Position numbers and translations under genes: made by a program | Assembly: GCA_027365385.1 (NCBI GenBank) | Contig: DAHXNN010000240.1 | Coordinates: 1 to 40,025 of the forward strand | Reading direction: 5' to 3' | Length of the DNA stretch: 40,025 nt | Source: Acidimicrobiaceae bacterium | GTDB taxonomy: Bacteria > Actinomycetota > Acidimicrobiia > Acidimicrobiales > Bog-793 | Shown: one piece after another, positions 15,598 through 34,946 of the stretch | Layout of the letters: each line of letters starts with the position of its first letter | Numbering within the stretch: the stretch's first letter is position 1 | Notes under the pieces: generated by a model | The model's database searches: none | Told to the model about the DNA's origin: nothing | Seen by the model: only the letters and a program-made list of their open reading frames with translations

Positions 15598-17117
15598 GCG
15601 CCGCCGTCGATCCGAGGACTGGCGAGTCGTTGCCCCTCGTCGCGGCGGACTCGACAGACGCGGAGATCGACGCCATCTGCGCGCGAGCAGAGCGGGCGGG
15701 TGCCGAGCTCGCTGTCCTCGGACGCGAAGGGCGAGCCCGGATGCTCGAGGCGATGGCCGACGCCCTCGAGGAACGACGTGACCGGCTCGTCGAGACCGCA
15801 GACCGCGAGACGGCTCTCGGCGCCCAGCGGCTCGGCGGCGAGCTGACGCGTACCGAGTTCCAGCTGCGGCTCTTCGCGGAGGTGCTTCGGGAGGGCTCCT
15901 ACCTCGAGGCGATCGTCGATCATGGGGGACCGACAGCTATGGGACCGCGTCCCGACGTCCGGCGCATCCTCCGTCCGATCGGTACCGTCGGTGTGTTCGG
16001 CGCGAGCAACTTCCCACTCGCGTTCTCCGTCCCCGGCGGCGACACGGCGTCGGCCCTCGCGGCGGGCTGTCCGGTCGTTGCGAAGGCGCACCCGTCGCAC
16101 CCGGCGACCTCCGTGCTCGCCCACGAGGCGCTCCTTGCCGGAGCGGGCGCTTCGGGGCTCGCCACCGCGCCGGTCTCGCTCGTCTTCGGCGTCGAGGCAG
16201 GAGCACGGCTCGTCGGGCATGCCGCCGTCCAGGCCGTGGGCTTCACCGGCTCGCTCGCCGTCGGCCGGCTCCTCGCGGACGTCGCGGCCGCGCGAACGTC
16301 GCCGATCCCCTTCTACGGCGAGCTCGGTGCTTTGAACGCTGTCGTGGTGCTTCCCGCGGCGGCTGCCGCTCGCGCGGAGGAGATCGGGCACGGTCTCGTC
16401 GCCTCCTTCACCCTCGGCGTCGGCCAGTTCTGCACGAAGCCCGGGCTGGTCCTCGTCCCTCGAGGTGACGTAGGGAGCGCGCTCGTCGAAGCGCTCGTGT
16501 CTGCAGCCGGAGCCGTGCCTGCCGGAGTGATGCTCGGTCCCTCCATCGCTGACCGGTACTCCGAGCGGGCGGCGGAGATCGCTGCTTCTCCGGGTATCAC
16601 CGTTCTCGCCCGGGGCGGGAGCCCGCTGCTCGAAGGGAGCGCTTCGGGAACCCCGGTGGTCGTGCGCGCCGACGTCGGCGCGCTGCGGGGGATCGCCCTC
16701 GAGGAGTGCTTCGGGCCGATGCTCGTCGTGGCGACCTACGACGGAGCGGAAGGGCTCGCAACCCTCGTCGATCTGCTCGGGCCGGCGCTTACGGCGACGG
16801 TCCACGCCGAGCTGCAGGACGAGGGAGAGGCGCGAGACCTGCTCGACACCCTGGCGGCGCGGGTCGGGAGGATCGTGTGGAACGGCTACCCGACGGGCGT
16901 CGCCGTTTCCTGGGCGATGCACCACGGAGGGCCGTACCCGGCCACGACGAGCTCGCTGCACACCTCGGTGGGCGCGACGGCCATCCGTCGCTGGCTCCGA
17001 CCGGTCGCCTACCAGGACGTCCCGGAGCAGCTGCTGCCCGAGGAGCTGCGAGACGTGCCCGGGGCCGGAGCGACCGTGCCCCGGCGGGTCGACGGCGTGC
17101 TCGTCCTGCCGGGTTGA
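15594..17117 (+). CDS. Alpha-ketoglutarate semialdehyde (2,5-dioxovalerate) dehydrogenase, NADP-type
   Basis: A 507-residue aldehyde dehydrogenase of the KGSADH group, oxidising 2,5-dioxovalerate to 2-oxoglutarate. General base Glu243 is in YGELGALN and catalytic Cys280 in GQFCTKPG. The C-terminal blocks GYPTGVAVSWAMHHGGPYPATT and VGATAIRRWLRPV are characteristic of this group rather than of succinate-semialdehyde or betaine-aldehyde enzymes. The GTG at 15594 overlaps the DapA-family stop (GTGA), so the two are translationally coupled and act as consecutive steps. It is the last step of the oxidative uronate, glucarate and Weimberg pathways and delivers carbon to the TCA cycle. Confidence 0.92.
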   Translation: MSAAVDPRTGESLPLVAADSTDAEIDAICARAERAGAELAVLGREGRARMLEAMADALEERRDRLVETADRETALGAQRLGGELTRTEFQLRLFAEVLREGSYLEAIVDHGGPTAMGPRPDVRRILRPIGTVGVFGASNFPLAFSVPGGDTASALAAGCPVVAKAHPSHPATSVLAHEALLAGAGASGLATAPVSLVFGVEAGARLVGHAAVQAVGFTGSLAVGRLLADVAAARTSPIPFYGELGALNAVVVLPAAAAARAEEIGHGLVASFTLGVGQFCTKPGLVLVPRGDVGSALVEALVSAAGAVPAGVMLGPSIADRYSERAAEIAASPGITVLARGGSPLLEGSASGTPVVVRADVGALRGIALEECFGPMLVVATYDGAEGLATLVDLLGPALTATVHAELQDEGEARDLLDTLAARVGRIVWNGYPTGVAVSWAMHHGGPYPATTSSLHTSVGATAIRRWLRPVAYQDVPEQLLPEELRDVPGAGATVPRRVDGVLVLPG

Positions 17118-17118
17118 G

Positions 17119-17161
17119 CCCGCGGCATCGTTCGACTCACGCGTTCCAACGCGACCGCGGG
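17119..17161. terminator. Nested stem-loop between convergent genes
   Basis: CCCGCGG (17119-17125) is the exact complement of CCGCGGG (17155-17161). Inside it CGCGT-TCCA-ACGCG (17140-17153) forms a second hairpin. It starts right after the semialdehyde dehydrogenase stop and before the convergent IlvD-type stop at 17197, so it is a likely bidirectional terminator. Confidence 0.55.
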
Positions 17162-17196
17162 ACGTTCGGCGGTCGATCGGGTGGTGGTCTGCGGGC

Positions 17197-18924
<1,728 letters not shown>

Positions 18925-18980
18925 CGGCTCAGCCTCGCGCGTCGGCATGCACGGCGTCCACGGCGAGTCGTTGCACCACG

Positions 18981-19009
18981 TTGACAGAGCGGGCGTCGAC
19001 GCGTAACAT
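18981..19009 (+). promoter_or_regulatory. Sigma-70-type promoter for the 19208 operon
   Basis: TTGACA (18981-18986), a 17-base spacer and TAACAT (19004-19009) make a near-consensus housekeeping promoter reading rightward. Transcription should begin near 19016, giving a leader of about 190 bases before the ATG at 19208. The -35 is perfect and the -10 keeps TA---T. Confidence 0.7.
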
Positions 19010-19018
19010 ACCGCTGTC

Positions 19019-19057
19019 TACATATGCGAACGATATCTAGATATGTGATCGCATGTA
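19019..19057. promoter_or_regulatory. Extended dyad, likely operator
   Basis: A perfect 12-base palindrome ATATCTAGATAT (19033-19044) is flanked by ATGCGA (19024-19029) and TCGCAT (19049-19054) and by TACAT and ATGTA at the outside, all nearly concentric. It is strikingly AT-rich for this genome and lies right over and after the start of transcription from the 18981 promoter, where a bound repressor would block it. It shares AGATATGTGA with the dyad at 22238. The divergent IlvD-type gene may be controlled from the same site. Confidence 0.6.
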
Positions 19058-19207
19058 AGTAGTGGCAGATGTTCCGACAGGTGGCGCAACGGGGGTCCGT
19101 CGACCGTGTCGCCGCGAGCGACGCGTGGTGGGGTCGCGCCGCTCGAGTGCCCGTCGACGTCGGGCGAACGTGGGTCGGACTGGTCGAGCGAAGGGGGAAG
19201 ACGGGCG

Positions 19208-20368
19208 ATGGGCGCGAGGATCGAGCAAGTCGAGGTGCGGGTGTTTGCGACTCTCGACTGGACGACGAAGGACTCCGACGGCCACACCCATCCGGGTCCT
19301 GAGCGGAGAGCCGAGCACGCGCTCCTCACCGTTCGTGACGGCGACGGCGCCGAAGGGCACTGCCTGTGCAGCGGCGAGGCGCTCCGTCCGTCGGTCCTCG
19401 ACGGCTTCGTGCGCAAGGTGGCGATCGGCGAGGATCCGTTCATGCGCGAGCGCATGTGGAACCGTCTCTACCGCATGCAGCGGGGGAGCGGCGGTCAGCT
19501 TACCGATCGGGCGATCGGCTACCTCGACCAGGCATTGTGGGACCTCGCTGGGCGCAAGCTCGGTGCGCCGGTGTGGCAGCTCCTCGGCGGCGCACGCTCG
19601 ACGGTCCCTGCGTACGCGAGCACGATGTGTGGCGACGACATCGAGGGCGGGCTGCGTACGCCCGAGGACTACGGACGCTTCGCCGAGACGCTCGTCGCGG
19701 CGGGATACTCCGCTGTCAAGCTCCATACGTGGATGCCGCCCGTGCCCGGTGCACCCGACCCGGGCATGGATGCCCGTGCCTGCGCGGCGGTGCGCGAGGC
19801 GGTCGGCCCCGACGTGCCGCTGATGCTCGACGCCAATCACTGGTACACGAGGACCCAGGCACTAGCACTCGGTCGCGCGCTCCAGCAGCTCGACTACTAC
19901 TGGTACGAGGAGCCGATGGAGGAAGCCTCGATAAGCTCCTACCGTTGGCTCGCCGAGCAGCTCGAGATACCGGTGATCGGCCCTGAGACGGCGTTCGGTC
20001 GAGTCCACACGCGGGCCGAGTGGATCGGCCAGGGTGCGTGCGACATCGTCCGGGTCGGGGTCAACGACACGGGTGGCATCACGCCGGCGATGAAGATCGT
20101 CCACCTCGCCGACGCGTTCAACATGGACGCCGAGGTGCACGGCGGGGGATCGGGGAACCTTGCCATCCTCGGCGCGATGGAGAACGGCCGCTGGTACGAG
20201 CGGGGTTTGCTGCACCCGCACTTCGACTACGACGCGGTGCCTCCGCACCTCAGCTCCGCGGTCGACCCGATAGACGAGCACGGCAACGTCCAGATGCCGG
20301 AGTCGCCTGGGCTCGGGGACGACCTGTGCTTCGGGTACATCGACGAGAACATCGTCGCCCGCTGGTAG
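19208..20368 (+). CDS. Mandelate racemase/muconate-lactonizing family protein, acid-sugar dehydratase candidate
   Basis: A 386-residue enolase-superfamily protein. Metal ligands are Asp208 (LMLDANHW), Glu234 or Glu235 (YWYEEP) and Glu260 (IGPETAFG). His311 in EVHGGG is the likely C-terminal general base. The usual K-x-K on strand beta2 is K-x-H here: Lys171 and His173 in AVKLHTW, so it is not a standard mandelate racemase, glucarate or tartrate enzyme and its substrate is open. I chose the ATG at 19208, preceded by GGGGGAAG; the 34-residue extension to 19106 is non-homologous. It heads an operon with an aldo-keto reductase and an SDR behind a strong promoter and operator. Confidence 0.85.
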   Translation: MGARIEQVEVRVFATLDWTTKDSDGHTHPGPERRAEHALLTVRDGDGAEGHCLCSGEALRPSVLDGFVRKVAIGEDPFMRERMWNRLYRMQRGSGGQLTDRAIGYLDQALWDLAGRKLGAPVWQLLGGARSTVPAYASTMCGDDIEGGLRTPEDYGRFAETLVAAGYSAVKLHTWMPPVPGAPDPGMDARACAAVREAVGPDVPLMLDANHWYTRTQALALGRALQQLDYYWYEEPMEEASISSYRWLAEQLEIPVIGPETAFGRVHTRAEWIGQGACDIVRVGVNDTGGITPAMKIVHLADAFNMDAEVHGGGSGNLAILGAMENGRWYERGLLHPHFDYDAVPPHLSSAVDPIDEHGNVQMPESPGLGDDLCFGYIDENIVARW

Positions 20369-24406: not shown

Positions 24407-25780
24407 ATGAGCCAACATCGAGCATGGCGTCACACCCGGCGCATCGGCACGGCTGTGGCCGCGACGGGAATGTTGCTTGCTGGAGGGGGCATCGCCAGCG
24501 CGACTGCGGCGACAGCCAAGCCACACTCTGCCAAGCCACACTCTGCCAAGCCACACTCCTCGAGTGTCACGATCACGTTCTGGGACGACAACGGTGGTCC
24601 CCGGACGCCTATCTACATGCACCTTATCCCCATCTTCGAGAAGGAGAATCCCGGGATCAAGGTGAAATATGTGGGGATCCCGGATCCCTCGGTGCTCGAG
24701 AAGTACGACACGGCCATCGCGGGCGGCGATCCTCCGGACATCGGCGCGATCCCTGGCGGCGACCTCGCAGCCATTGTCGCCCAGAGTGCGCTCGTGCCGT
24801 TGAACAAGCTCTACCAGTCGAGCCCGCTCAACGGCAAGCTCCTTCCGACCCTGCTCACCGCGACCGCGGCCTCGTCGTCGAACGACAAGACCCTCTGGGC
24901 TCTTCCGTTCTCCGGTGTGCCGTCCACCCTCTGGTGCAACATGGTGCTCTTCCGCGCTGCGCACCTGACGTGCCCGACCACGTGGAACGCGTTCTTCACG
25001 GATGCGAAGGCGCTGACGAACAGCTCGAAGGGCCAGTACGGTCTCACGATGCGCGGTGCCGGGGGCTCCACCAACCAGCTCACCGACGAGATGGTCTCCT
25101 ACGCGGGGCTGACTAGCTACTTCACGAAGAACGGAAAGAGCACCTTCGACAGCCCGCGGGCAGTGGACTTCATCAAGAGATTCGCCGCGATCGAGGGCGT
25201 CGACACGCCGAATGACGTCGACAACGGCTACTTGCAGATGGTGGCCGAGTTCGACTCGAAGAAGATCGGCATGATGCTCCACAACCTCGGCTCCTACGCG
25301 AGCAACGTCAGCGCGCTGGGGGGTGCCTCGAACGTCGTGGGGCTCACCGAGCCACAGGGGCCGTACAACAAGCCCGGAGTGCTCAACATGGTGGCGCCCG
25401 GCCTCGACACCTACGGGATATTCAAGGCGAGCAAGAACCAGGCGGCTGACTGGAAGTTCGAGGAGTTCCTCCTGTCGGCTCAGGCCAACGGCTACTGGAA
25501 CCAGCAGGTCGGCCAGCTCCCCGGCAACTCCGACGTCTTGAAGCAGGCATGGGTTGCCAAGCAGCAGCCGATCAAGTCCATGCTCGCAGCGCTCGCGAAC
25601 CCGAAGACGGTCGTCGTCCCGGCGCCGAACTACCTGCCGCAGCTCGGCACGATCGTTACGAACATGGACACGCTCTGGCAAGAGGTGCTGACGAAGCAGA
25701 TCACGCCGCAGCAGTGGTGCTCAACCTACGCGAGCCAGCTGACGAGCGCGGAGTACCTCTGGACACACGGTCACCGTTGA
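24407..25780 (+). CDS. Extracellular sugar-binding protein of CUT1 ABC importer
   Basis: A 457-residue solute-binding protein (family 1 type). Residues 1-36 are a signal peptide (HTRRIGTAVAATGMLLAGGGIASATA), without a lipobox Cys. A threefold AKPHS repeat (37-51), encoded by three 15-bp tandem units, forms a linker before the mature domain. Typical motifs are VTITFWDDNG at the start, AGGDPPDIG near residue 110 and YWNQQVGQLPGNSD near the C-terminus. An AAGGGGGAAA SD precedes the ATG. It delivers the ligand to the 22401/23452 permeases. Sugar type is not clear; the island context favours a uronide, oligouronide or related sugar. Confidence 0.9.
   Translation: MSQHRAWRHTRRIGTAVAATGMLLAGGGIASATAATAKPHSAKPHSAKPHSSSVTITFWDDNGGPRTPIYMHLIPIFEKENPGIKVKYVGIPDPSVLEKYDTAIAGGDPPDIGAIPGGDLAAIVAQSALVPLNKLYQSSPLNGKLLPTLLTATAASSSNDKTLWALPFSGVPSTLWCNMVLFRAAHLTCPTTWNAFFTDAKALTNSSKGQYGLTMRGAGGSTNQLTDEMVSYAGLTSYFTKNGKSTFDSPRAVDFIKRFAAIEGVDTPNDVDNGYLQMVAEFDSKKIGMMLHNLGSYASNVSALGGASNVVGLTEPQGPYNKPGVLNMVAPGLDTYGIFKASKNQAADWKFEEFLLSAQANGYWNQQVGQLPGNSDVLKQAWVAKQQPIKSMLAALANPKTVVVPAPNYLPQLGTIVTNMDTLWQEVLTKQITPQQWCSTYASQLTSAEYLWTHGHR
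24515..24559 (+). repeat. Three 15-bp tandem units encoding (AKPHS)3
   Basis: GCCAAGCCACACTCT occurs at 24515, 24530 and (last base C) 24545. It is in frame and lies at the signal-peptide/mature boundary of the binding protein, so copy-number change would lengthen or shorten a linker without a frameshift. Confidence 0.85.
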
Positions 25781-30247: not shown

Positions 30248-31054
30248 GTGGAGCATTTCTTGCGGGAGTCGTGGAGATCGGGACAGCCCGCGCTCGGGCT
30301 GTGGTGCACGGTCGGCAACACGCTCGTCGCCGAGGCGCTCGCCTCGGTCGAGCCGGACTACGTCTGTGTCGACATGCAGCACGGCAGCTCCTACGAGGGG
30401 AACCTCGTCGGGATGCTCCAGGCCGTCGAAGCCGGTGGGAGCTCGCCGGTCGTGCGGGTGCCGGAGAACAACCCCGCCTCGATCATGAAGGCGCTCGACG
30501 CGGGGGCGAGAGGTGTCATCGTGCCGCTCGTCGAGAGCGGCGAGCAGGCGGCTCGTGCGGTCGAGGCGTGCCGCTTCCCCCCCTACGGGAGCCGTTCGTT
30601 CGGGCCGTTCCGCGCGTCCATCCACGCGAGGACCTCGGACCCGCGCGAGCTCGAGAAGGTCGCCTGCGTCGTGATGGTCGAGACCCGCGCCGGCATCGAC
30701 CACCTCGACGAGATCGTCGAGACCGACGGGCTGACGGCTGTCTACGTGGGTCCGTCGGACCTGAGCATCGCGCTCGGTCTCGCACCGGGCTCGGTCGAGG
30801 ACCCCGGGTTCGTCGCGGTCCTCGAGGAGATCCGCGCCGCGTGTGCCGCGCACGACGTCGTGCCCGGCCTGCACTGCTACGACGGCAGGACCGCGAGGCG
30901 CGCCGTCGAGCAGGGGTTCGGGATGGTCACCGTCGCCGTCGAGCTCCGGGCGCTGCGCGCGGCGCTCGGCGTGGAGCTCGCCGAGGCGCGATCCGCGGTG
31001 CTCCCCGCGGCGGCGACGTCCGCGGCGACACCGGTGACAGGGACGGTGGCGTGA
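30248..31054 (+). CDS. HpcH/HpaI-family class II aldolase (GarL-like)
   Basis: A 268-residue metal-dependent aldolase that splits a 2-keto-3-deoxy or keto-deoxy-aldarate into pyruvate and an aldehyde. Asp42 and His45 (VDMQHG), Arg70 (VVRVPENN), Glu145 (MVETRAG) and Asp171 (GPSDLS) are the catalytic base region, substrate Arg and metal ligands in family order. The start is GTG 30248 behind a GAGAGGGAGA SD. In this operon, after glucarate dehydratase and before tartronate-semialdehyde reductase, 5-keto-4-deoxyglucarate is the natural substrate (GarL activity). Rhamnonate-type keto-deoxy acids are an alternative given the CUT2 importer downstream. The Ala/Thr-rich last 20 residues look disordered. 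Confidence 0.88.
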   Translation: MEHFLRESWRSGQPALGLWCTVGNTLVAEALASVEPDYVCVDMQHGSSYEGNLVGMLQAVEAGGSSPVVRVPENNPASIMKALDAGARGVIVPLVESGEQAARAVEACRFPPYGSRSFGPFRASIHARTSDPRELEKVACVVMVETRAGIDHLDEIVETDGLTAVYVGPSDLSIALGLAPGSVEDPGFVAVLEEIRAACAAHDVVPGLHCYDGRTARRAVEQGFGMVTVAVELRALRAALGVELAEARSAVLPAAATSAATPVTGTVA

Positions 31055-31980
31055 TGGCGGGCTTGCGCTTCGAGGCGAACATCTCGATCCTTTTCACCGA
31101 GCTCCCCCTGCTCGAAAGACCCGCCGCGGCCAAGGCTGCCGGCTTCGACGCAGTCGAGCTCTGGTGGCCCTTCGCGGACCCGGTGCCGCCTGCCGCGGAG
31201 CTCGACCGTCTCGAGGCCGCGCTCCGCGGGGCCGGTGTCGAGCTCGTCGGGCTCAACGTCGACGGTGGTGATCTCGGTGCAGGCGAGCGGGGCCTGCTCT
31301 CGCTGCCCGACGCCGGCGCGCGCTTCGAAGACAACGTCGCCTGTGCGGTCTCTTTCGCCGGGTCTCTCGGGACGACGGTGCTGAACGCCCTCTACGGCAA
31401 CCGGGTCGACGGCGTCGCGCCCCAGGCCCAGGACGAGATCGCGCTCGAGCGGCTCGCGTATGCAGCCGGCGCGGCGGCACGTGTCGGGGCGCGGGTCGTG
31501 CTCGAGACCCAGAACCACCTCGACAGCCCCAGCTACCCGCTGCGAGACCCAGCACAGGCGGCCGCGATCGTCGAAGAGATGCATGCCGACGGCCACGAGA
31601 ACGTCGGCCTCCTCTGCGACTACTACCACCTCGCGGTCGAAGGCTACGACCTCGTCGGCTCGACCGACGCCTTCTTCGCCCTGATCGACCACGTCCAGAT
31701 CGCCGACGCGCCGGGCCGGCACGAGCCGGGCACTGGCGGCATCGACTACGAACGGGTCCTCGGCCATCTCGCAGGCGTCGGCTACGGCGGGTGGGTCGGC
31801 TGCGAGTACCGCCCGAGCGGGAAGAGCGCAGATAGCTTCGGGTGGCTCGAGAGCTTTCGCAGTGACCGACCAGCAGTGCCCGACCAGCAGTGCCCGACCA
31901 GCAGTGCCCGACCAGCAGTGCCCGACCAGCAGTGCCCGACCAGCGATGACCGACCAGTGATGACGGAGGACGTGCGATGA
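31054..31980 (+). CDS. hyi: Hydroxypyruvate isomerase family protein with repeat-encoded tail
   Basis: A 308-residue xylose-isomerase-like TIM barrel of the hydroxypyruvate isomerase group, which interconverts hydroxypyruvate and tartronate semialdehyde. Glu151 (LETQNH) and Glu251 (GCEYRPSG) are the catalytic pair; CDYYH and VQIADAPGRHEPGTGGIDY are hallmark blocks. The core ends near residue 268, the usual family length. The last 40 residues come from a 14-bp tandem repeat (31868-31965), giving a PAVPDQQCPTSSAR-type tail that is surely not conserved. ATG 31054 shares its A with the aldolase stop (TGATG). Its stop overlaps an ATG (31977) inside a 17-bp duplication leading to the next gene. Confidence 0.88.
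   Translation: MAGLRFEANISILFTELPLLERPAAAKAAGFDAVELWWPFADPVPPAAELDRLEAALRGAGVELVGLNVDGGDLGAGERGLLSLPDAGARFEDNVACAVSFAGSLGTTVLNALYGNRVDGVAPQAQDEIALERLAYAAGAAARVGARVVLETQNHLDSPSYPLRDPAQAAAIVEEMHADGHENVGLLCDYYHLAVEGYDLVGSTDAFFALIDHVQIADAPGRHEPGTGGIDYERVLGHLAGVGYGGWVGCEYRPSGKSADSFGWLESFRSDRPAVPDQQCPTSSARPAVPDQQCPTSDDRPVMTEDVR
31868..31965 (+). repeat. 14-bp minisatellite, five perfect plus two degenerate copies
   Basis: GACCAGCAGTGCCC repeats exactly at 31868, 31882, 31896, 31910 and 31924, then degenerates at 31938 (GACCAGCGATGACC) and 31952 (GACCAGTGATGACG). As 14 is not a multiple of three, each copy reads in a different frame and any copy gain or loss changes the C-terminus of the isomerase. 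Confidence 0.92.
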
Positions 31981-32003
31981 CGGAGGAAGTGCGATGACAG
32001 AGG
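31960..32003 (+). repeat. 17-bp tandem duplication carrying SD and start codon
   Basis: ATGACGGAGGACGTGCG, ATGACGGAGGAAGTGCG and ATGACAGAGG begin at 31960, 31977 and 31994, exactly 17 apart. Each copy has an ATG, and the first two have a GGAGGA SD for the next ATG. The third ATG starts the reductase gene. The middle copy makes a six-codon ORF bridging two ATGA overlaps. Confidence 0.85.
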
Positions 32004-32911
32004 TCGGGTTCGTCGGGCTCGGCATCATGGGTGCCCCGATGGCGTCGAACCTCGTGAAGGCGGGCTTCGACGTCGTGGGCTACGACCCGGTCCCGAAAGG
32101 CGTCGAGAGGCTCGTCGAGGCCGGTGGCCGCGCGGCGACGAGCATCGCCGAGGCGGTCGGGACGGCGGACGTCGTCGTGACGATGCTGCCCGACTCCCCG
32201 CAGGTCGAGCAGGTCGCGCTCGGGCGGGACGGCGTCCTCGACCACGCGCGAGGCGGCATCTTGTACATCGACACGAGCTCGATCGCGCCGGAGGTGTCGC
32301 GCCGCGTGAGCAAGGCGGCACGTGAGCGCAACATCCGCCCGCTCGACGCGCCGGTGAGCGGGGGCGAGGCGGGGGCGGTCGAAGGCTCGCTCTCGGTCAT
32401 GGTCGGCGGCGAGCCGGCCGACTTCGCCGCGGCGCGCCCCGTGCTCGACGTCGTCGGAGCGACGGTGGTCCACGTCGGCGGTGACGGTGCGGGTCAGACC
32501 GTGAAGGCAGCGAACCAGCTCGTCGTGGCCGGTGTCATCGAGCTCGTCGCCGAGGCGATCGTGCTGCTCGAGGCGTGCGACGTCGACGTCAAGGCTGCGC
32601 TCGACGTGCTCGCCGGCGGGCTCGCGGGCAACAAGATCCTCGACCGCAAGCGCGCGTCGATGCTCGCCCGCGACTTCCGCCCGGGCTTCCGGGTCGACCT
32701 GCACCACAAGGACCTCGGGATCATGCTCGCGACAGCACGCGAGGCCGGCGTCCCGCTTCCCCTCGGGGGCCTCGTCGCGCAGCTCATGGCGGCGCTTCGT
32801 GCCCGAGGCGGTGGGTCGCTCGACCACTCGGCGCTCCTGCTCCTCGTCGAGGAGCTCGCGGGGCGCGGCTCGGGCCGGACGGTGGCGCTACCCGAGGGCT
32901 CCCCGTCGTGA
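31994..32911 (+). CDS. garR: 2-hydroxy-3-oxopropionate (tartronate semialdehyde) reductase
   Basis: A 305-residue beta-hydroxyacid dehydrogenase. The NAD(P) motif GLGIMGAPM is at 8-16, the substrate loop DAPVSGG at 118-124 (Ser122), catalytic Lys171 in GQTVKAANQ and HHKDLG further on. These are the four family blocks. With a GarL-type aldolase and hydroxypyruvate isomerase directly upstream, reduction of tartronate semialdehyde to D-glycerate is the likely role; 3-hydroxyisobutyrate dehydrogenase is the main alternative by sequence alone. ATG 31994 has GGAGGA five bases upstream within the 17-bp duplication. The C-terminus is rich in Gly and Ala. Confidence 0.88.
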   Translation: MTEVGFVGLGIMGAPMASNLVKAGFDVVGYDPVPKGVERLVEAGGRAATSIAEAVGTADVVVTMLPDSPQVEQVALGRDGVLDHARGGILYIDTSSIAPEVSRRVSKAARERNIRPLDAPVSGGEAGAVEGSLSVMVGGEPADFAAARPVLDVVGATVVHVGGDGAGQTVKAANQLVVAGVIELVAEAIVLLEACDVDVKAALDVLAGGLAGNKILDRKRASMLARDFRPGFRVDLHHKDLGIMLATAREAGVPLPLGGLVAQLMAALRARGGGSLDHSALLLLVEELAGRGSGRTVALPEGSPS

Positions 32912-32924
32912 GGAGCGCGGCCCG

Positions 32925-33656
32925 ATGAGCGACGTGGACGAGCTGCTCGAGCGCCTCGCTGTCTACGACAGCCCGACGCTGTCGAACGCGATCGAGGCCT
33001 TCGGCGTCCGCTCACAGGCCGAGGGCTTCGCAGGTCCGTCGTGTGCCCGGCTCGTCGGCGGACCGGCACCGACGGTCGGACGTGCGGTGACGGCGACGAT
33101 GGGCTCACGCGCACCTCGCAGCGATGCGGCGCAGCGTGCAGCGCTCTACGAGCAGGTCCGCGACACCGACGGCCCTGTCGTCCTCGTCGTGGTTGACATC
33201 GACGAGGAGCCCGGGCACGGGGCCTTCCTCGGCGAGATGCAGGCGACGCTGTTCTCGAAGCTCGGGGCGGTCGGGATCGCCACGAACGGCGCGATCCGCG
33301 ACCTCGAGCAGCTCCGCGCGATGGGCTTTGCCGCGTTCGCCGGCGGCGTCTCGGTGTCCCACGCCTACGCTCACCTCGTCGAGGTCGGCGTCCCGGTCGA
33401 GCTCGCGGGGCTGCGCGTCGCCCCCGGTGACGTGCTGCACGGCGACGAGCACGGCCTGCTCGGCGTGCCGGCGGGGCTCGTCGACGCACTTTCCCCGGTC
33501 GCCGACGCGATCGTCGAGGCGGAGAGGGCGGTGCTCGCCTGGGTCACGTCCGCAGACTTCGCGGCCGGCGAGATCCTCGAGCGGCTGGCGACGGTGAGGT
33601 CGGCAGCAGCCTCGGCAGCTGCCCCCGCTAGCGCGGCACCGCTGCGGGCGGGTTGA
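32925..33656 (+). CDS. RraA-like protein (HMG/CHA aldolase-type)
   Basis: A 243-residue member of the RraA/4-hydroxy-4-methyl-2-oxoglutarate aldolase fold. The segment GEMQATLFSKLGAVGIATNGAIRDLEQL (103 onward) carries the Gly-Glu and Arg125-Asp126 of the active-site motif, and PGDVLHGDEHGLLGVP contains the Asp-rich partner loop. The presence of the R-D pair suggests a metal-dependent lyase or decarboxylase rather than an RNase E inhibitor. ATG 32925, with AGGAG shortly upstream, is 13 bp after the reductase stop; it ends the operon. Homologues in sugar-acid clusters have poorly known substrates, so I leave the reaction open. Confidence 0.82.
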   Translation: MSDVDELLERLAVYDSPTLSNAIEAFGVRSQAEGFAGPSCARLVGGPAPTVGRAVTATMGSRAPRSDAAQRAALYEQVRDTDGPVVLVVVDIDEEPGHGAFLGEMQATLFSKLGAVGIATNGAIRDLEQLRAMGFAAFAGGVSVSHAYAHLVEVGVPVELAGLRVAPGDVLHGDEHGLLGVPAGLVDALSPVADAIVEAERAVLAWVTSADFAAGEILERLATVRSAAASAAAPASAAPLRAG

Positions 33657-34793: not shown

Positions 34794-34946
34794 GCTTGCT
34801 GTCTCGGATGGAGCGGCACGCCACCTCCACTCACGGTGCGGCTGCGTCTCGTTCGCAGCGGGCGGGATATCTCTCTGTCCGTGCTCCACTCCCGCCGCCG
34901 GCATCGCTTCTCCACGCGCGAGGCAGGGTAGCCGCTGCGAGCGTCT

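Follow-up and report, generated by a model that had tools for sequence, protein, structure and literature searches.

A 14-bp tandem array in the tail of a hydroxypyruvate isomerase-like gene differs by four units between sister species and moves the stop before the adjoining reductase gene

Repeats at gene junctions in described systems

In the literature that we searched on tandem repeats at operon stop/start junctions, the only analogues were mycobacterial. As at the locus studied here, Mycobacterium VNTR/MIRU loci consist of tandem units between co-oriented genes. According to PMC12548453 (citing Supply et al. 1997), MIRUs hold a short ORF that is coupled to the following gene at a spacing of -4 nt; they measure 40 to 100 bp per unit, occur dispersed through the genome and seem to be mobile. 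In M. tuberculosis, the length of the ETR-F VNTR, located between rnc and fpg1 and upstream of fpg1, correlated modestly with the fpg1 mRNA level (PMC2734929), so that a small effect at the present locus is conceivable. Tandem repeats in M. tuberculosis promoters have a phase-variable copy number that is obscured by short reads and is a source of variation; these repeats alter transcription (PMC12817950), whereas the 14-bp array described here lies inside a co-oriented gene run and could affect only the protein tail or the coupling of the next gene. Mycobacterial VNTRs are thus the closest relatives in kind.

Typical phase-variable repeats are built from much shorter units and switch surface-structure genes on or off from a position close to the promoter or the 5' end. 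The phase-variable (contingency) genes of Neisseria and Haemophilus (PMC5084427, PMC2651432) share with our locus a repeat within the reading frame whose unit is not a multiple of three, but in our case only the last residues after a complete enzyme core change. With regard to translational coupling, the review literature reports that it is usually best at -4 to +3 nt and 3- to 10-fold lower by approximately +40, with systems differing widely, and that some studies find a strong dependence on spacing that extends to +13 nt (PMC12548453).

The 14-bp array and the isomerase-like tail

We analysed a window of 40,025 nucleotides (the whole stretch of DNA, numbered from its first base) from an Acidimicrobiaceae draft genome. 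Its forward strand carries an HpcH/HpaI-type aldolase gene (30248–31054; PF03328, E = 1e-30) that lies directly upstream of a hydroxypyruvate isomerase (HPI)-like gene (31054–31980; 308 aa) in the same gene run, their stop and start codons sharing one base. The HPI gene, which opens with ATG at 31054 and closes with TGA at 31978–31980, encodes a core (residues 1–269) and a tail (residues 270–308). On the same strand follow a 2-hydroxy-3-oxopropionate (tartronate semialdehyde) reductase gene (31994–32911; TIGR01505, E = 5.5e-109), with a score of 363.9 bits that exceeds the curated cut-off of 340.75, and, next downstream, an RraA-like aldolase gene (32925–33656; PF03737, E = 9.4e-24). TIGR03234 was the best-scoring family for the HPI gene (E = 1.6e-84, matching up to residue 266), although its 283.2 bits fall below the curated cut-off of 353.45; together with the tartronate semialdehyde reductase as neighbour, this family match makes the name hydroxypyruvate isomerase probable.

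Several observations delimit the HPI core from its tail. PF01261 matched residues 24–267, the solved homologue 3ngf aligned to residues 5–270 only, and AlphaFold pLDDT values exceeded 90 through most of the core and were under 50 for residues 276–308; the tail encoded by the array is accordingly modelled as disordered. Many of the HPI relatives that we fetched stop at approximately residue 265–270, and those with tails carry unrelated ones of different lengths, such that no conserved peptide tail was found among them. The core is complete upstream of the 14-bp array, whatever the frame.

The array itself (31859–31957, forward strand) comprises 7.1 copies by TRF (period 14, 95% matches, score 170). 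We re-read it directly and confirmed five exact copies of the perfect unit GACCAGCAGTGCCC at 31868–31937, flanked by degenerate copies, as a sequence-only reading of the window had described; the perfect units are central and the degenerate ones lie at both edges, the unit directly after the five perfect copies having three mismatches. The same reading had stated that none of the three frames meets a stop within the perfect copies; this also held, with first stops thereafter (TGA 31947, 31958, and 31978) within 2 bases of those it gave. In simulated 40-kb sequences (Markov-1, n = 200), the maximum TRF score was 90 versus 170 for the array, which is therefore not due to chance; its near-identical head-to-tail units are those of a VNTR or minisatellite. 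The two-unit pattern had no second site in the 2.39-Mb draft genome, and no tandem array resembling the unit was found elsewhere in it. Against the genome background, for which we used a 248-kb sample, the array ranked first by score among short tandem arrays. Periods not divisible by three were found in 18 of the 62 arrays of this sample and in 14 of 57 in a sample of the sister genome; this scarcity fits a removal of frame-breaking arrays from gene interiors, and codon periodicity contributes to the bias.

Elsewhere in the window, a perfect 15-bp tandem repeat, GCCAAGCCACACTCT (24515–24558; 2.9 copies, TRF score 88), lies in frame close to the 5' end of a gene for a sugar-binding protein (SBP_bac_1, 24407–25780), probably just 3' of the signal peptide.

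A second array, a mini-ORF and the sister species

Adjoining the 14-bp array is a 17-bp tandem array, GATGACGGAGGAAGTGC (31959–32003, forward strand; TRF, 2.6 copies), which the earlier reading had not mentioned. In each unit a Shine-Dalgarno sequence, GGAGG, serves the ATGA at the head of the unit that follows, and GGAGG sits seven bases 5' of both ATG 31977 and ATG 31994. The former had been proposed as the next gene's start, but we rejected it as the reductase start: direct reading showed that ATG 31977 opens only a six-codon mini-ORF, MTEEVR* (31977–31997, forward strand). The reductase starts at ATG 31994, since the protein begins MTEVGFVGLGIMGAPM. The mini-ORF derives from the 17-bp array. 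Its start overlaps the HPI stop (ATGA, 31977–31980), and its own stop (TGA, 31995–31997) overlaps the reductase start (ATGA, 31994–31997), whereas the HPI stop itself lies 13 nt upstream of the reductase ATG and overlaps the mini-ORF start only. MTEEVR*, with its -4 nt overlap with the start at 31994, resembles the short ORF of MIRUs. In contrast to MIRUs, however, the 14- and 17-bp units are found at one site only (no further copies of the 17-bp unit were detected elsewhere in the source genome), and the 14-bp array is part of a coding tail; a MIRU-like or dispersed element was thus rejected. The 17-bp part functions much as a very small MIRU would, yet it does not qualify as one, lacking both the dispersal and the length.

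We compared the junction with that of the nearest genome, a sister species (G001; JA2.bin26), in which both flanks have 92% DNA identity to the source and the alignment breaks at the array. The sister retains the 14-bp period, but its unit, GCGACCCACCAGAA (2.9 copies), has diverged; the shared 17-bp array comes next. Between the last core codon and the 17-bp array lie 101 bp in the source versus 45 bp in the sister, a difference of exactly 56 bp (4 × 14), whereas the reductase ATG follows after a further 32 bp in each. Copy number therefore differs between lineages by four units, at the level of species. A 10.5-kb pairwise alignment with the sister contained seven indels, of which the 56-bp array difference is the largest, and all seven lie at gene ends or in likely intergenic stretches. 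The second largest, a 29-bp insertion in the sister at 34827, lies in the likely upstream region of a divergent LacI-family regulator gene. Another sister contig (L128; G001:C70) holds a long tandem repeat cluster at 16788–19263 with units of 120, 159, and 234 bp; the 15-bp periodicity inside the units is reminiscent of a pentapeptide-type repeat gene.

The exactness of this difference bears on whether the copy number might partly be an assembly product, the array having been collapsed, expanded or strain-mixed in a short-read metagenome bin. The source genome is a 243-contig draft, and nearly identical 14-bp units are easy to miscount; against this, the separately assembled sister has the 14-bp period, the 17-bp array and a difference of exactly four units, the frame is consistent with an ORF ending at ATGA, and the array spans only ~100 bp, so that ordinary reads can cross it. 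We regard such an artefact as quite improbable. Divergence between the species likewise bears on the idea that the repeat is itself functional, as a repeated DNA or RNA binding site or as a selected repeated peptide tail, RPAVPDQQCPTSSA. Each 14-bp unit can pair imperfectly (83%) with the reductase coding start (32012–32023); yet the sister differs in both unit and peptide (GDPPEATHQKRPTSEDGGSA), a third genus member (G002) has neither, no similar tandem occurs elsewhere in the genome, the junction RNA folds no better than its shuffles (z = 0.12), and no promoter- or terminator-like patterns were found at the junction. We give this idea very little credence.

A difference of 56 bp, which is not divisible by 3, does not preserve the frame, and HPI therefore ends at a different stop in the two species: in the sister (L021), the TGA at 2395–2397 overlaps the reductase ATG (ATGA, -4 nt), compared with +13 nt in the source. 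G002 also has ATGA at this junction, with its own short tandem GGCAGCC repeat in the tail, and the -4 spacing is found at the HPI/reductase junction of many relatives. The sister and G002 thus share the ATGA (-4 nt) overlap of termination-reinitiation (PMC12548453), whereas in the source the HPI stop lies at the upstream duplicate ATGA, with the six-codon mini-ORF between the genes. As judged from these three genomes, the -4 overlap is probably ancestral and the shifted stop derived. The 17-bp duplication of the reductase Shine-Dalgarno sequence and start (31959–32003; L021, 2357–2403), with its chain of ATGA overlaps and mini-ORF, is common to the source species and the sister and absent from G002. 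In G002, 11 bp of the reductase start, GACGCAGGTCG, recur 43 bp farther upstream (L022, 2883–2893 and 2926–2936), perhaps as a trace of an older duplication, perhaps by chance.

Copy number, stop position and coupling to the reductase

Since 14 is not a multiple of three, each unit gained or lost shifts the exit frame of HPI and, with it, the terminal residues and the stop position of the protein. When we changed the copy number in silico by adding or removing perfect units, the source sequence yielded three tails and stops, and the stop-to-start spacing cycled through +13, +33, and +44 nt without ever reaching -4. No functional part was truncated and no on/off state arose, the stops lying 13–44 nt before the reductase. 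For the sister sequence, copy change gave -4, +13, or no stop at all; more specifically, removal of one unit abolished all stops and produced an in-frame HPI-reductase fusion of 595 codons. The predicted opening energy of the reductase ribosome-binding site remained at 4.9–6.2 kcal/mol across 0–8 copies with no trend and, given this flat accessibility and the fold z of 0.12, RNA structure was rejected as the agent.

These results bear on the claim that copy-number change moves the HPI stop and thereby switches coupling to the reductase. The first half of it stood between species (four units, -4 versus +13 nt), but not the supposed overlap with a reductase start at 31977. The switch did not bear out: the spacing never becomes -4, the reductase has its own GGAGG, and access to its ribosome-binding site is flat. 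A contingency locus, in which 14-bp slippage would toggle coupling (in the sister, an HPI-reductase fusion) and create heritable variation in enzyme ratio, would agree with a unit length not divisible by three, five perfect copies, the real four-unit difference with its shift from -4 to +13, the fusion reached by the sister on loss of one unit, and the dependence of coupling on spacing (PMC12548453); the spacings available to the source and the intact Shine-Dalgarno sequence with unchanged predicted access speak against it, and we consider it unlikely. A pair of housekeeping catabolic enzymes would, moreover, be atypical as contingency genes. It is very improbable that the locus is a slippage-driven tuner of enzyme stoichiometry, whose stop would cycle through spacings, including the fusion state of the sister, with the mini-ORF from the duplicated Shine-Dalgarno sequence and start as a relay. 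Given the published fall of coupling with distance, an effect of copy number on reductase output is possible and, if present, most likely graded.

The reading we favour, and think likely, is neutral minisatellite turnover in a dispensable HPI tail without a selected switching role. A VNTR-type array would have arisen, and would turn over by slippage or unequal recombination, in the dispensable, putatively disordered C-terminal tail, where HPI borders the co-oriented reductase gene; at least one copy change (56 bp, four units) has taken place since the split from the sister. Reductase expression is probably buffered by its own Shine-Dalgarno sequence and by a mini-ORF relay: the mini-ORF is joined by an ATGA to the HPI stop on one side and to the reductase start on the other, so that a ribosome finishing one frame can pass to the next. 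That slippage is the cause, that the turnover is neutral and that reductase translation is buffered are our inferences. Counted against neutrality is that the tail has stayed open and the ATGA/Shine-Dalgarno units have been kept in two species; this retention, together with the published spacing sensitivity at +13 nt, makes an effect on expression conceivable.

The array and its turnover are best read as being of a known kind (minisatellite/VNTR). The two sister genomes form a clean natural pair, in which a non-triplet repeat that differs by exactly four units moves a stop at an operon-like junction, and the case shows that duplication of a ribosome-binding site can place a mini-ORF between two coupled genes. 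If expression is sensitive to these changes, the locus would offer a rare example of translational coupling controlled by a VNTR in a catabolic gene cluster; if not, it illustrates how repeat turnover is tolerated where genes end.
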